Positions 5,694 through 10,990 of a DNA stretch of 64,000 nucleotides are shown here, one piece after another. The notes under the pieces are model-generated. The model saw only the letters and a list, made by a program, of their open reading frames with translations, was not told the DNA's origin and made no database searches. The number at the start of each line of letters is the position of its first letter. The stretch's first letter is position 1. Source of the DNA: Curtobacterium sp. MCSS17_015 (GTDB lineage: Bacteria; Actinomycetota; Actinomycetes; Actinomycetales; Microbacteriaceae); contig NZ_CP126256.1 of assembly GCF_003234265.2 (NCBI RefSeq), positions 806,001-870,000 of the forward strand. Reading direction: 5' to 3'. Position numbers and translations under genes: made by a program.

Positions 5694-6086
5694 GGTGCTG
5701 TCTTTCTTCAGTCGTTCGGCGTCGCGCGGGGCCGGACGGACTCGATGGTCTCGTCGGCCGCAGGAGCACGGACGCGCACGTCGACACTCGACGTGCATGC
5801 TCGCCAGTCGGGGAGCGGTGGTCTCGCTGGAATGCGATCCAGGGGGATCGGTTCGAGACGGTCGGTGTGCGCGAGTCAGATGGGTTCGCTGCAATGCACC
5901 AACTAGGAACTGTACTCCGCCCAAGCCCGTCTGTCCACTCGTGCGGTCAGCTCCCGGCCCTGCCGGTCGCACTCGCAACGCGTAACACGTGGGAAACCGA
6001 CCGGGCCTGAGCGCGAAACACCCCGTCGTTACGGTTCGAGCACTGAGCAAGCGTTCAGCCCGAACCCCGACGAAGGACCCGCACGG
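5694..6086. other. Divergent intergenic region
   Basis: This 393-base gap separates two divergent genes, the OB-like gene (-) and the cohesin-like gene (+). It has lower GC patches (for example around 5895-5925 and 5985-6055) that probably hold promoters, and GAAGGA at 6072-6077 is a plausible ribosome binding site for the ATG at 6087. I see no credible gene, repeat or strong hairpin in it. Confidence 0.55.
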
Positions 6087-6914
6087 ATGCAGCACCGCAC
6101 TCGGCTCCGCTCCCGCACGACCACCCGCCTGACCACCACACTCCGCACGGCCGTCATCACCGCCGGAGGCATCGGACTCGCCGTCCTCGCCGCGTCACCG
6201 GCCGCCGCGGCCCCGGCCGCCACCACGGCCACGATCACCGCACCGGCCGTGGTGACGGTCGGCGACACCATCGACGTCGCCCTGACCCTGCCCGCCACGT
6301 CCGATGTCTTCGCCTACCAGATCGACGTCGCGGCGGACGCCGACGCCGTCGAGGTCGTCGACGGCAGCGCGACCGGCCCGGACGGCGGGTTCGACTCGGT
6401 CGAGCAGGACGGCGATACCGTCACGCTCCTGCACACCCGCCTCGGCACCTCGCCCGCGGTGTCCGGTGACCTGGCCGCCTCGTTCGACCTGACCGCGACG
6501 AGCCCCGCCACGGTCGACCTCGCCGTCACGAGCGTCACCCTGGTCGCCACCGACGGCAGCACCACCACCCTGACCGACCCGACCTCGACGACGATCACGA
6601 TCACAGCGGTCCCGACGCCGAGCCCGACTCCGACCGCCGGGCCCACCAGCGTCCCGACGGCGGCCCCCACCGCCGCACCGGGCGGTGCCGGTGGAACCGG
6701 GAGCGGGAGCGGGAGCGGGACCGGCACGGGAACCGGCGGGTCCGTCGATCCGGTGACCGACACCTCGTCGGCGCCCGCTGGCGGTGCCCTCGCCTGGACC
6801 GGTGCCGACCTCACACCCTGGGTCGCCGCCAGCGTCGTCCTGCTGCTCGCCGGAGCAGGCCTCGTCGTCGCCCGTCGCCGTGCCTCCCGTGCCCGGGCGG
6901 AGGACGCGCGATGA
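6087..6914 (+). CDS. Cell-surface cohesin-like protein with LAXTG sortase signal
   Basis: A 275-residue exported protein. Residues 1-43 are a signal peptide ending ...SPAAAAPA. Residues ~45-175 match the cohesin fold pattern: VTVGDTIDVALTLP, then DVFAYQIDVAADADAVEVV (compare the cohesin 'yayqfdl.ydp.vlevv' strand), then LLHTRLGTSPAVSGDLAASF and a final TLVATDG strand. Residues ~176-230 are a Pro/Thr then Gly/Ser linker. LAWTG (235-239), a hydrophobic segment (~244-262) and RRRASRAR follow: a cell-wall sorting signal of the LAXTG class used by class E sortases in actinobacteria. Its stop overlaps the start of the dockerin-bearing amidase gene (ATGA), so the two are translationally coupled. The cohesin call rests on pattern, not on a search. 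Confidence 0.8.
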   Translation: MQHRTRLRSRTTTRLTTTLRTAVITAGGIGLAVLAASPAAAAPAATTATITAPAVVTVGDTIDVALTLPATSDVFAYQIDVAADADAVEVVDGSATGPDGGFDSVEQDGDTVTLLHTRLGTSPAVSGDLAASFDLTATSPATVDLAVTSVTLVATDGSTTTLTDPTSTTITITAVPTPSPTPTAGPTSVPTAAPTAAPGGAGGTGSGSGSGTGTGTGGSVDPVTDTSSAPAGGALAWTGADLTPWVAASVVLLLAGAGLVVARRRASRARAEDAR

Positions 6915-8815
6915 CCGCCACCGACCGCACCCGCACGACCGACGCCAGCTCGACCCGAACCCCCGGAGGAACCCCCGTGACCCGCCGTCGTCGCACCACC
7001 GTCGCCGGAGCCGCGCTCCTGGCCCTCGTCGGCACCGCCGTCGTCGCGACCCCGTCCCTCGCCGCGAGCGCCGCGCCGGCCGCGGTCGACACGAGCCCCG
7101 CGGCGATGCTCGCGCCGTACTACACAGCGCTCGACCTGACCGGCGACGACCAGGTCACGACCGCCGACCTCGCCGTCCTGTCCGACCACCTCGGTGCGAC
7201 CTCGACGGACCCGGACTGGTCCGCCGTCTCAGCCGCGGACAGCGACACTGACGGCACGATCACGTTGCAGGACGTCGCCACGTCGTCCCAGCGCATGATC
7301 TACGACGACGGACCGTTCACGCTCGTCGAGGCGTCGACGCTCGACATGCAGGCCGCCATGAACGCGGGCGTCACGACCTCAGCCGAGATCACCCAGGACT
7401 ACCTCGACCGCATCGCCGCCTACGACCGGACCACCACGGACACCGGGGCGGGCGGGCGGCCGCTCAACTCGATCGTCACGACCAACGCCGGGGCGATCGC
7501 CGCCGCGAAGGCCGCCGACGCCGAGCGTGCCGCACACGGGATGACGAGCATGCTCCTCGGCGTCCCGATCGCGCTGAAGGACAACTACGACACGAAGGAC
7601 ATGCCGACCACCGGCGGCTGCGGCTGCTGGGACGACAACCAGACCACGACCGACGCGGCCATGATCGCCGGCCTCCGCGAGGCGGGGGCGGTCGTCCTCG
7701 CCAAGGCGAGCCTCGACGAGTTCGCCTTCGGCTTCGTGTCCGAGTTCTCCTCGAACCAGCCGGCGGGCTCGTCCCTCCTCGTCGCGAGCCCGTACGTCAC
7801 GACGCAGACCGCCGGCGGTTCGAGCGGCGGCACGGGCGCGGCGATCGCGGCGAACCTGGCGGGCATCGGGTTCGGCACCGACACCGGTGGCTCGATCCGC
7901 GTCCCGTCGTCGTACAACCAGCTCGTCGGCATCCGCCCGACGGTCGGTCTCGCGAGCCGCGACGGCATCATCCCGCTCGCGCTGTCCCAGGACACCGGTG
8001 GCCCGCTCGCCCGCTCGGTCACCGACGCCGCCGTGGCGCTCGACGCCGTCACCGGTATCGACGCCGCCGACCCGGTCACGCAGGGCCAGGCGGGCAAGGT
8101 CCCGACCTCGTACACGCAGTTCCTCGACCCGACGGCCCTGCACGGCAAGCGGATCGGCTACGTCACGTCGATGGTCGGGTCGAACCGCACCACCGCGCGG
8201 CTCTTCGCCGAGGCCCGGGCCACCCTGGAGGCCCAGGGTGCGACCGTCGTGCCGATCACCGCGACGCCCGAGTTCAACCGGGTGCTCAGCGAGGGCAGCG
8301 GCAGCACGAACGAGTTCAAGCACGACCTCGACCAGTACGTGGCGAAGCACCTCGACCCCGACGTCACGGCGCGCTCGCTGCAGGGCATCCTCGACTCCGG
8401 GAAGTACGTTCCCAGCCGGAAGAGCACGTACCAGCAGCGGAACGCGATCACGGAGGCGCAGTACCAGGCCTGGGCGGGACCGGAGGGCTCGCACACCACG
8501 CAGATCGCGACGGGCAAGCAGGTCGTCACCGGGATGATGGACGCGCAGGACCTCGACGCGCTCGTCTACCCGTCGGGCACCCCGTACGGCACGCAGGGCA
8601 CGAACATGCGCCTCAGCCCGAACACCGGCATGCCGGCCGTGACCGTCCCGATGGGACAGGCCACCGCGGCGGACGCCACGATCACCGGGGCGGGCGTGAA
8701 CCTCGAGTTCCTCGGCCGCTCCTACGACGAGGGCACCGTCATCGGCCTCGGTTACAGCTTCGAGCAGGCGACCCACGCCCGCACCAGTCCGGCGCTGTAC
8801 CCGGCACTCGGGTAG
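6911..8815 (+). CDS. Secreted amidase with N-terminal dockerin-like domain
   Basis: A 634-residue amidase-signature enzyme. After a signal peptide (TRRRRTTVAGAALLAL... to about ASAAPA), residues ~72-125 hold two EF-hand-like loops of dockerin type: DLTGDDQVTTAD (Asp75, Thr77, Asp79, Asp86) and DSDTDGTITLQD (Asp110, Asp112, Asp114, Asp121). The catalytic domain has Lys223 (ALKDNYDT), cis-Ser304 (GGSSGG) and nucleophile Ser328 (GTDTGGSIR); the 24-residue Ser-Ser spacing matches the family. It hydrolyses an unknown amide, possibly peptide amides. Two starts are possible: ATG 6911 (overlapping the upstream stop, GGAGGA 6 nt before) and GTG 6977 (also GGAGGA 6 nt before), the latter giving a more compact signal peptide. 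The dockerin probably docks on the preceding cohesin-like protein. Confidence 0.88.
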   Translation: MTATDRTRTTDASSTRTPGGTPVTRRRRTTVAGAALLALVGTAVVATPSLAASAAPAAVDTSPAAMLAPYYTALDLTGDDQVTTADLAVLSDHLGATSTDPDWSAVSAADSDTDGTITLQDVATSSQRMIYDDGPFTLVEASTLDMQAAMNAGVTTSAEITQDYLDRIAAYDRTTTDTGAGGRPLNSIVTTNAGAIAAAKAADAERAAHGMTSMLLGVPIALKDNYDTKDMPTTGGCGCWDDNQTTTDAAMIAGLREAGAVVLAKASLDEFAFGFVSEFSSNQPAGSSLLVASPYVTTQTAGGSSGGTGAAIAANLAGIGFGTDTGGSIRVPSSYNQLVGIRPTVGLASRDGIIPLALSQDTGGPLARSVTDAAVALDAVTGIDAADPVTQGQAGKVPTSYTQFLDPTALHGKRIGYVTSMVGSNRTTARLFAEARATLEAQGATVVPITATPEFNRVLSEGSGSTNEFKHDLDQYVAKHLDPDVTARSLQGILDSGKYVPSRKSTYQQRNAITEAQYQAWAGPEGSHTTQIATGKQVVTGMMDAQDLDALVYPSGTPYGTQGTNMRLSPNTGMPAVTVPMGQATAADATITGAGVNLEFLGRSYDEGTVIGLGYSFEQATHARTSPALYPALG

Positions 8816-8833
8816 GTCGCTGCCGCGACCGTG

Positions 8834-8883
8834 GACGGACGGGAGGCCCGGGTACCAGCTGGTGCCCGGGCCTTGCGTCCGTC
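8834..8883. terminator. Two-part hairpin after amidase gene
   Basis: Outer stem GACGGAC (8834-8840)/GTCCGTC (8877-8883), a 3x3 internal loop (GGG/TGC), then inner stem AGGCCCGGGTACC (8844-8856)/GGTGCCCGGGCCT (8861-8873) with one G-T pair and loop AGCT. It lies between convergent genes. The same outer stem, internal loop and inner stem base occur, inverted, after gcvP (20624-20675). Confidence 0.8.
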
Positions 8884-8889
8884 GTCGGT

Positions 8890-9666
8890 TCAGTTGAGCG
8901 TCGGGGTGTCCTCCGGCACGACGCCACCGAGGTAGAGGTCCGCGGCGAGGTCGCGGAGCGCCCGCAGGGCGACGCGCTGCGTGAGCGGGCCGTAGGAGAT
9001 GCGGGCGACGCCGAGCGCCTCGTACTCCGACGCGGGCAGCGCGCCCGGCAGGCCGATGACGCTGAGCTTTCCGTGGCCGAGGCCCTCGACGAGCTGTTCG
9101 ACGACCTCGCGCTGGTGCCCGCCCGGCACGAACACGAGCGGTGCGCCCGCGTCGAGGAACGCTTTGCCGCGGGCGATGGCGTCCGCGATGCTCTCCGCGA
9201 TCGGGCGGTCGCCGCCGCGGGCGATGGCGTCGGTGCGGGCGTTCAGCTGGAAGTCGACACCCTCCTGCTCCGCGGCCTTCATGATCGCGGCGACGCGGGC
9301 GACGGACTCGTCGAACGGGCGGAGGCGGTCCTCGACGTTCGCGCCGACGATGCCGAGGCCGATCGCGCGGCGGATCGTCTCGGCCGGGTCCTCGTACCCG
9401 TCGTCGAGGTCGGCGGTCACCGGCAGGTCGACAGCGTCCACGACGGTCTTCGCGCCGGCGAGGGCGAGGTCGAGCGGCATGCCGCCGTCCTGGTACCCGT
9501 ACGACGCGGCGATCGAGTGCCCGGCGGTGGCGATCGCGTGCGTCTCGGGCAGGGCCGCGACCGTCTTCGCGCTGATCGCGTCCCAGACGTTGACGACCCG
9601 CAGGATCTGCGGTGCTTCGTGCAGGGACTTGAGTGTCGTCGCCTTCTCGGCGGTGCTCGTGGTCAT
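8890..9666 (-). CDS. Isocitrate lyase/PEP mutase-family protein
   Basis: A 258-residue TIM-barrel protein of the isocitrate lyase/phosphoenolpyruvate mutase superfamily, acting on C-C or P-C bonds of small carboxylates. Recognisable parts are NVWDAISAKTV, the metal-site strand ADLDDGYEDP, NVEDRLRPFDE, QLNARTDA and VPGG. The Cys of the isocitrate lyase KKCGH motif is absent, so it is not an isocitrate lyase; phosphonomutase-like or oxaloacetate decarboxylase-like activity is possible. On the coding strand TACTGT ends 7 nt before the ATG at 9666, with no ribosome binding site, suggesting leaderless initiation. It stands alone, convergent with the amidase. Confidence 0.85.
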   Translation of the reverse strand: MTTSTAEKATTLKSLHEAPQILRVVNVWDAISAKTVAALPETHAIATAGHSIAASYGYQDGGMPLDLALAGAKTVVDAVDLPVTADLDDGYEDPAETIRRAIGLGIVGANVEDRLRPFDESVARVAAIMKAAEQEGVDFQLNARTDAIARGGDRPIAESIADAIARGKAFLDAGAPLVFVPGGHQREVVEQLVEGLGHGKLSVIGLPGALPASEYEALGVARISYGPLTQRVALRALRDLAADLYLGGVVPEDTPTLN

Positions 9667-9802
9667 GCCGCCGACAGTAGGCGGATGGCTGCCCTCCGGT
9701 GCGCAGGCGCTCAGCCGAGACTCGGCCTGGGACGCGGACGCAGACGACGCAGGATGACGGACCGAGTCGCACCAGGCCTCCCGGCGGGGCATGCTGGAAG
9801 GC

Positions 9803-10990
9803 ATGGCGAGCGACGAACAGGACCCGGTCGGCACGCTCCGTGGGGTCCGCACGAGCATCAAGTGGACGCGGTACGCGCCCGACGTGCTGCCCCTGTTCGT
9901 CGCCGAGATGGACCACGAGGTCGCGCCGGAGATCCGGCAGGCCCTCGTCGAGCGGGTGCAGCAGTCGGACCTCGGGTACCTGGACGGGCCGGGGCCGCTC
10001 GCGCCGGCGTTCGCCGGGTTCGCCCGCGACCGCTGGGGCTGGGACGTCGCCCCGGAGCGCGTGTACCTCGCGACGGACGTCAGCGTCGGGATCGTGGAGA
10101 CGCTCCGGCTCGCGTTGCCGGACGGTGGGCGCGTGGCGATCGCGCCGCCGGTGTACCCGCCGTTCTTCGAACTCGTCGAGGAGGCCCGATGTCAGGTCGA
10201 GGAGGTACCCCTCACTGAGCGGTGGGGCGTCTACCGCCTCGACCTCGACGGGCTCGAGCGGGCGTTCGCCGACGGGGTCCGCGTGTTCCTGCTCTGCAAC
10301 CCGCACAACCCGATCGGGCTCGTGCACGACCGAGCGGACCTCGTGGCGCTCGCCGAACTCGCCGCGCGGTACGACGTGCTCGTGATCAGCGACGAGATCC
10401 ACGCGCCGCTGACGCACCCGGGCGTGCAGTTCACGCCGTTCGCGACGGTCGCCGAGCCCGCCGGTGCGCGCAGCGTCTGCGTGACGAGCGCGAGCAAGGG
10501 CTGGAACCTCGCCGGCGTGAAGTGCTCGGTCATCGTCGCCGGGGACGCCCGCACCGCCGAGCTCCTCGACACGCTGTGGGAAGAGGTGGCCTGTCGGACG
10601 AGCATCCTCGGGCTGCACGCGAACGTCGCGGCCTTCAGCCTGGCCGTCGGGTGGCTCGACGACGTCATCGACCGCATCGTCGCGAACGACCGGCTGCTGG
10701 CGAAGCTCCTCGCCGAGCACCTGCCCGGCGTCGTCTACGCGCGACCCCGAGCCGGGTACCTGGCCTGGCTCGACTTCCGGGGGCTCGGGCTCGGCGACGA
10801 CCCGGCGGTGCAGCTCCGGGAGCACGCGTTCGTGGCGCTCAACTCCGGGCTGCCCTTCGGCGCGCAGGGGAGGGGCTTCGCCCGGATCAACCTGGCGTGC
10901 TCGCCGGAGACGCTGCGCGAGGCGGTGTTCCGCATCGCTGCCGCGTACCCGTCCAGTGCGCAGGAGGGGGTCGTCTGGCACGTCGCCTGA
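9803..10990 (+). CDS. MalY/PatB-type aminotransferase (C-S lyase)
   Basis: A 395-residue fold-type I PLP enzyme of the MalY/PatB group, which usually cleaves cystathionine or other cysteine S-conjugates to a thiol, pyruvate and ammonia. Visible are IKWTRYAPDVLPLFVAEMD (the family's substrate-cap start), CNPHNPIG, SDEIHAPL and the PLP lysine in SASKGWNLAG (Lys232). An in-frame ATG lies 12 bases upstream (9791), but CATGCT ends 7 nt before 9803, fitting the leaderless pattern, so 9803 is preferred. It is divergent from the PEP mutase-like gene. A role in methionine biosynthesis or thiol release is likely from the family but not fixed by the neighbourhood. Confidence 0.88.
   Translation: MASDEQDPVGTLRGVRTSIKWTRYAPDVLPLFVAEMDHEVAPEIRQALVERVQQSDLGYLDGPGPLAPAFAGFARDRWGWDVAPERVYLATDVSVGIVETLRLALPDGGRVAIAPPVYPPFFELVEEARCQVEEVPLTERWGVYRLDLDGLERAFADGVRVFLLCNPHNPIGLVHDRADLVALAELAARYDVLVISDEIHAPLTHPGVQFTPFATVAEPAGARSVCVTSASKGWNLAGVKCSVIVAGDARTAELLDTLWEEVACRTSILGLHANVAAFSLAVGWLDDVIDRIVANDRLLAKLLAEHLPGVVYARPRAGYLAWLDFRGLGLGDDPAVQLREHAFVALNSGLPFGAQGRGFARINLACSPETLREAVFRIAAAYPSSAQEGVVWHVA

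Follow-up and report, generated by a model that had tools for sequence, protein, structure and literature searches.

A conserved cohesin and dockerin-amidase gene pair in Curtobacterium and other Actinobacteria as a putative one-to-one display system

The stretch of DNA analysed here (64,000 nucleotides, C1:806001-870000, hereafter the window) belongs to the genome of Curtobacterium sp. MCSS17_015, a bacterium of soil and plants; this genome consists of one contig of 3.32 Mb. It harbours two overlapping genes predicted to encode a wall-anchored cohesin protein and a secreted amidase with an N-terminal dockerin, and this pair probably represents a minimal one-to-one cohesin-dockerin display system for the amidase. 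The evidence from sequence and predicted structure comprises the domains of both proteins, a sorting signal with a suitable sortase, the conservation of the gene pair, the co-inheritance of its halves and their natural fusion. On this basis we infer the physical binding of the two proteins, its dependence on calcium, their location at the wall and the substrate class of the enzyme. Both open reading frames (ORFs) and their overlap of 4 nucleotides (nt) lie where the initial annotation of the window had placed them.

The 275-residue product of the first gene matches the Pfam cohesin model PF00963, its only Pfam domain, marginally with 24.4 bits for the whole protein and 26.8 bits for the domain alone (cut-off 24.1). 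Its relatives match more clearly, with up to 46.1 bits, and 63 of 71 aligned cohesins are matched at E <= 0.01. The predicted structure resembles solved cohesins, which suggests the cohesin beta-sandwich fold. By far the most conserved element of the cohesins is the RLGxSP loop (0.91 compared with at most 0.62 elsewhere), and the motif [TS][RK]LGxSP is present in all 72 cohesins of the main set. In cellulosomal complexes the region of this loop contacts dockerins. The cohesin is followed by a low-complexity linker rich in Pro, Thr and Gly, by the LAWTG signal at residues 235-239 (27.8 bits with the LAVTG-type NCBIfam model, cut-off 27), a hydrophobic helix and an Arg-rich tail. Two sortase matches were detected in the genome, one of them clearly of class E (NF033747, 229 bits, cut-off 160). 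The C-terminal LAXTG, the helix, the positive tail and the presence of this sortase mark the protein as a putative class E substrate, in agreement with the sortase anchoring proposed initially. Over the 72 related cohesin loci the sorting signals were LAxTG in 56, LPxTG in six, another LxxTG in eight and none in two.

The Pfam model Dockerin_1 (PF00404) scores 26.4 bits against the dockerin region of the amidase alone and 22.6 bits, just under the cut-off of 22.9, against the whole protein. At E <= 0.01 it matches 26 of 27 aligned dockerins, whereas any single EF-hand model matches at most seven. All ligands that had been predicted (Asp75, Asp79 and Asp86 as well as Asp110, Asp112, Asp114 and Asp121) were found when counted on the sequence, and the two duplicated loops with Asp ligands point to a type I dockerin. 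Asp at positions 1, 5 and 12 of loop 1 occurs in 188 of 193 unfused rows, four of the others being unparsed and one having Glu at position 1. The pattern used for loop 1 fits 189 of the 193 rows, which is not a free count because it required Thr at position 3. The assignment of both domains by the initial annotation is therefore upheld by the Pfam matches, those of the relatives and the predicted cohesin structure, as is the view of a minimal pair, since PF00963 and PF00404 each match once in the whole genome, the latter on the amidase.

In the catalytic part the motifs KDN, GGSSGG and DTGGS, as expected for an amidase signature enzyme, place the key residues at 223, 304 and 328, and we take Lys223, Ser304 and Ser328 to be the Ser-cisSer-Lys triad. 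The best solved relative of residues 133-634 is a peptide amidase (PDB 5ac3/1m21, E 1e-70), presumably from Stenotrophomonas maltophilia.

A Pfam search over 398 Microbacteriaceae genomes, which would miss genomes where both domains score below Pfam cut-offs, detected the cohesin in 21 and the dockerin in 26, together in 28 genomes. With family-specific profiles both halves were found in 27 of these 28. In 26 they are adjacent on a single contig, and in genome G155 they lie on two separate contig ends; accordingly, the 27 Microbacteriaceae genomes with an amidase-type dockerin all have the cohesin. Seven genomes had appeared to possess the dockerin only. Six of them contain an adjacent cohesin unreported by the Pfam search, and the seventh, G264, carries a different dockerin without a match to the dockerin-junction profile. 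Among 66 genomes of the genus, cohesin and dockerin occur in the same 22 and neither occurs in the other 44 (E <= 1e-5). The dockerin-junction profile was also applied to named loci: in 72 of the best 80 of 100 a cohesin lies beside the dockerin-amidase, and its absence from the remaining eight is presumably due to contigs starting less than 460 nt upstream. The family, genus and named-locus sets share species. Complete pairs were identified in Curtobacterium, Leifsonia, Herbiconiux, Mycetocola, Microbacterium, Cellulomonas, Cellulosimicrobium, Isoptericola, Georgenia and Oerskovia, with the gene order reversed in a few cases (G149, L117, G613, G653). Demequina has the pair as well, the cohesin gene of Demequina sediminis (L111:5043-5848) being divided over two frames by a frameshift or a sequencing error.

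As a control, we considered the amidases matched in 297 genomes of the order, 39 in total. The 17 amidases with a dockerin are all accompanied by a cohesin (17/17), and for the remaining 22 neither a dockerin nor a cohesin is present at the fetched locus (0/22). In family f45 of the same class the amidase gene precedes a cohesin gene in five of six genomes, and the product of this cohesin gene carries an Ig-like tail (by eye) but lacks an anchor. Scoring covered 4 first-look candidates per genome in the order search and 10 in the class search; in the protein searches about 8000 best candidates were scored, with at most the best 120 matches per search.

Two side observations concern the dockerins. 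A contig of 3566 bp labelled Stenotrophomonas maltophilia (L134) encodes an actinobacterial dockerin-amidase and is probably an assembly contaminant. Furthermore, genomes G360 and G321 encode a second, mid-chain dockerin in secreted proteins of about 1240-1260 residues (L079:2969-6691, minus strand; L080:4333-8109, plus strand), in which a Pfam search detected nothing except Dockerin_1. The protein of L080 ends in LAATG and a helix. These proteins are possibly second clients of the cohesin, or their dockerin serves as a calcium spacer.

Cohesin, dockerin and amidase are also united in one chain in four fusion architectures, one of them with a sortase signal at its end. With the fusion region of L146 as query, at least 15 cohesin-dockerin-amidase chains were found (P0186-P0200; P0190 from Microbacterium hominis). 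Like L146, these chains lack a sorting signal both at the end and between the domains. Among the matches listed, P0235 and P0238 (the latter cut) are dockerin-amidase-cohesin chains with an extra tail that scores 32.2 bits with Big_3_5, under the cut-off of 35.5. A single frame in G340 encodes a cohesin, LSATG, a helix, a second signal peptide, the dockerin and the amidase, and this chain would be split into two products, provided that it is processed by both sortase and signal peptidase. In the incomplete genome G578 (69%) a single frame encodes dockerin, amidase, cohesin, LAVTG and helix, so that the enzyme itself would be wall-linked. The apparent long fusions in L029, L030, L035 and L042 were rejected as alternative-frame read-through. 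The conserved pairing, the co-inheritance and the repeated fusion agree with what a matched cohesin and dockerin, as initially proposed, would predict.

Fusion may be accompanied by decay of the dockerin. The loop-2 ligands (D1, D/N3, D/N/S5, D12) are intact in 193/193 distinct unfused rows compared with 14/18 fused ones, a contrast that is suggestive and not a probability because the rows share descent. The stretch between the loops is shortened in four fused proteins (P0186, P0194, P0199, P0235). Identical regions entered this count once, and it omits P0006, P0051, P0096, L084 and L135, which have no YDDG anchor, as well as the cut P0238.

In the proposed mechanism both proteins would be exported. 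The class E sortase would cleave the cohesin protein at LAWTG and join it to the wall, where the single cohesin would remain on its flexible linker. The amidase would be secreted as a soluble enzyme and would bind the wall cohesin through its N-terminal dockerin, which would fold around two calcium ions; the invariant RLGxSP loop is the proposed contact. Held at the surface, the peptide-amidase-like enzyme may cleave the amide groups of small peptides or comparable compounds, so that ammonia and acids would be set free close to the cell. As the nearest solved enzymes are named peptide amidases, our best guess for its role is the scavenging of amide nitrogen at the surface.

Several results weigh against this docking model. 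An AlphaFold2 (AF2) prediction of the cohesin-dockerin segment of L146 in cis gave good domains and no confident docking, since the predicted template modelling score (pTM) reached only 0.62. In a mutual-information analysis of the cohesin and the dockerin-amidase, based on 85 non-redundant pairs out of 109 (effective number 42.5), the dockerin held 27% of the 100 top-scoring pairs and 14% of the variable columns, but after correction for column entropy this excess was not significant and the signal was taken as null (p 0.13 for variable columns, 0.52 for all columns). Loop 1 has Thr instead of Asp or Asn at position 3 in 27/27 aligned rows, and the comparison of loop 2 in fused and unfused proteins is not phylogenetically independent. 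Genome G958 of family f45 contains an orphan cohesin and genome-wide no match to the dockerin-junction profile; the RLGxSP motif is lost in this cohesin, which offers a natural test of the motif's role. Finally, most fusions and family f45 are without a wall anchor. The wall display of the amidase claimed by the initial annotation is thus supported as the overall reading and not as a universal trait, and the association of cohesin and dockerin may be more basic than the display.

The missing anchors bear on the idea that the amidase depends on the cohesin as an obligate structural or regulatory subunit for its stability, folding or activity, with wall display as a secondary, lineage-specific addition. 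It would account for the retention of all three domains in P0186-P0200 and L146 and for the anchorless partner cohesins of f45, the association being kept more widely than the anchor. However, 70 of the 72 main-set loci have an LxxTG signal, one fusion ends in LAVTG and a helix, and amidases with neither domain are common and presumably active, so that this explanation seems rather unlikely to us. The dockerin might otherwise do no more than cap the amidase as an EF-hand stabilised by calcium, and the cohesin might be an independent surface protein sharing the operon by chance. The last dockerin helix indeed continues directly into the conserved YDDGPF of the amidase in the alignment, the best 60 of 251 solved chains matching the dockerin-region profile are calmodulins or calmodulin chimeras and none a dockerin, and signals of docking and covariation are missing. 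Such a cap is nevertheless very improbable, because the region fits the dockerin model far better than any EF-hand model and the strict co-inheritance and the fusions in both orders would be difficult to account for if the two had no functional connection.

Membership of the pair in a larger cellulosome-like system with more dockerin enzymes can hardly be expected. The second dockerins in proteins of about 1250 residues in the relatives G360 and G321 would fit such a system, yet they concern two of 27 paired genomes. The genome studied here has neither a multi-cohesin scaffoldin nor a set of dockerin-bearing glycoside hydrolases, its cohesin and dockerin being single. The initial statement that cellulase genes are absent holds in so far as no match to PF00150 (glycoside hydrolase family 5, GH5) was detected genome-wide at E <= 0.001, this being the one family checked. 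We therefore regard one-to-one display of the amidase by the anchored cohesin as the preferred reading of the pair, whose features are listed in Table 1.

Table 1. Position and supporting basis of the gene pair, its domains and motifs, its neighbours and two related loci
Feature	Position	Strand	Basis
Two-gene unit with upstream region	5939..8833	+	Whole-block presence/absence in the genus (BLASTN against pair-less loci; limits as in L255)
Wall-anchor (cohesin) gene, 275 aa	6087..6914	+	ORF; signal peptide, cohesin, linker, LAWTG, hydrophobic helix, positive tail
Cohesin domain, residues 41-182 as modelled	6207..6632	+	Predicted structure
TRLGTSP motif, residues 117-123, strand end and following loop; proposed dockerin contact	6435..6455	+	Conservation
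LAWTG class E-type sorting signal, residues 235-239	6789..6803	+	NCBIfam LAVTG-type model
ATGA stop/start overlap of cohesin and amidase genes	6911..6914	+	Sequence
Secreted dockerin-amidase gene, 634 aa	6911..8815	+	ORF; alternative start GTG 6977
Dockerin domain, residues 67-135	7109..7315	+	Pfam Dockerin_1, 26.4 bits; alignment
Calcium-type loop 1, Asp75-Asp86, D-L-T-G-D...D, Thr at position 3	7133..7168	+	Alignment
Calcium-type loop 2, Asp110-Asp121, D-S-D-T-D-G...D	7238..7273	+	Ligand count
Amidase domain	7385..8734	+	Pfam Amidase PF01425, 256 bits, cut-off 27
GC-rich inverted repeat, terminator-like by eye, between convergent amidase and PEP-mutase genes	8834..8887	.	Self-match in inverse orientation
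Phosphoenolpyruvate (PEP)-mutase family protein, neighbour	8890-9861	-	Pfam
Aminotransferase, neighbour	9791-10990	+	Pfam
Dockerin of another type in G264, at contig end	L076:5015-5272	-	Pfam/profile
Orphan cohesin protein of G958, Ig-like tail by eye, RLGxSP lost, no Pfam match	L246:3874-5025	-	

The downstream neighbour of the pair was sought in 10 of the 44 pair-less members of the genus and found in nine. In six of these nine loci the flanks of the window (ending at 5915-5938 and 8834-8876) align by BLASTN only 26-126 nt apart; in two they are about 650 nt apart, and in one a single flank aligned. As judged from these alignments, the two-gene unit is gained or lost as a whole. The PEP-mutase and aminotransferase genes are not tied to the pair, since both adjoin the empty site in most pair-less members of the genus, and the genes flanking the pair vary from genus to genus (by eye). 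The inverted repeat downstream of the amidase gene aligns in both orientations in the pair-less loci L255 and L262 (BLASTN). A terminator scan did not call it, possibly for want of a T run, and a promoter scan gave no hit for the plus strand.

The initial annotation had regarded the two genes as translationally coupled. The overlap itself exists, and a 4-nt (A/G)TGA overlap is possible at the same offset in 67 of 72 related loci, with a 1-nt overlap in two more. The amidase may, however, start at GTG 6977 instead of within the overlap, since this alternative start has a good Shine-Dalgarno sequence (GGAGGA) and opens directly onto a signal peptide.

The system resembles the sortase-anchored scaffoldins of Ruminococcus, in which, according to the available part of PMC11557425, a wall-linked cohesin captures a dockerin protein. 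The same text describes many cohesins, scaffoldins and glycoside hydrolases for Ruminococcus, in contrast to the one cohesin and one amidase of the actinobacterium. Nearest in sequence profile and fold are the X82 cohesins of Clostridium perfringens (PDB 2jh2, 2vo8, 2w1n), which are likewise single and non-cellulosomal. As far as the accessible text of PMC12997984 goes, the C. perfringens cohesins are located on glycoside hydrolase proteins, whereas the cohesin described here is the sole Pfam domain of its protein and is paired in an operon with one amidase. The peptide amidase 5ac3/1m21 shares the enzyme family along the entire catalytic part, but its chains of 503-514 residues would hardly accommodate a dockerin. 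According to the abstract of PMC5148588, proteins with a LAXTG signal are displayed by class E sortases. The actinobacterial substrates have this signal in common with the cohesin protein, in which the anchored domain is a cohesin.

The joint presence of cohesin and dockerin is taken as a sign of a cellulosome-like complex (PMC12997984, in the part available), and such pairs are treated as a hallmark of polysaccharide-degrading complexes. No cohesins or dockerins are reported in the available text on three Cellulomonas genomes (PMC3544764) or in that on Cellulosimicrobium cellulans F16 (PMC4562250); other species or strains of both genera carry the unit. In the source records some of these proteins already bear the names "cohesin domain-containing protein" and "amidase family protein", so that the parts are annotated. 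Within a limited search of the literature we found no description of the cohesin/dockerin-amidase pair, and as far as could be found the pair as such has not been described. The initial annotation likewise knew of no such pairing with an amidase. The pairing is found well beyond this genome, in many actinobacterial genera.

We lean towards the view that Actinobacteria possess a widespread and modularly reshuffled display system of "one socket, one enzyme" that employs cohesin and dockerin for a non-carbohydrate enzyme. Its evolution would include switching among non-covalent docking of two gene products, covalent wall-anchored fusion and secreted fusion, and the dockerin could degenerate after the link has become covalent. 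If the binding proves true, the pair would be a natural one-to-one tethering pair, a possible tool for surface display and a simple case for studying the origin, decay and fusion of cohesin-dockerin systems.
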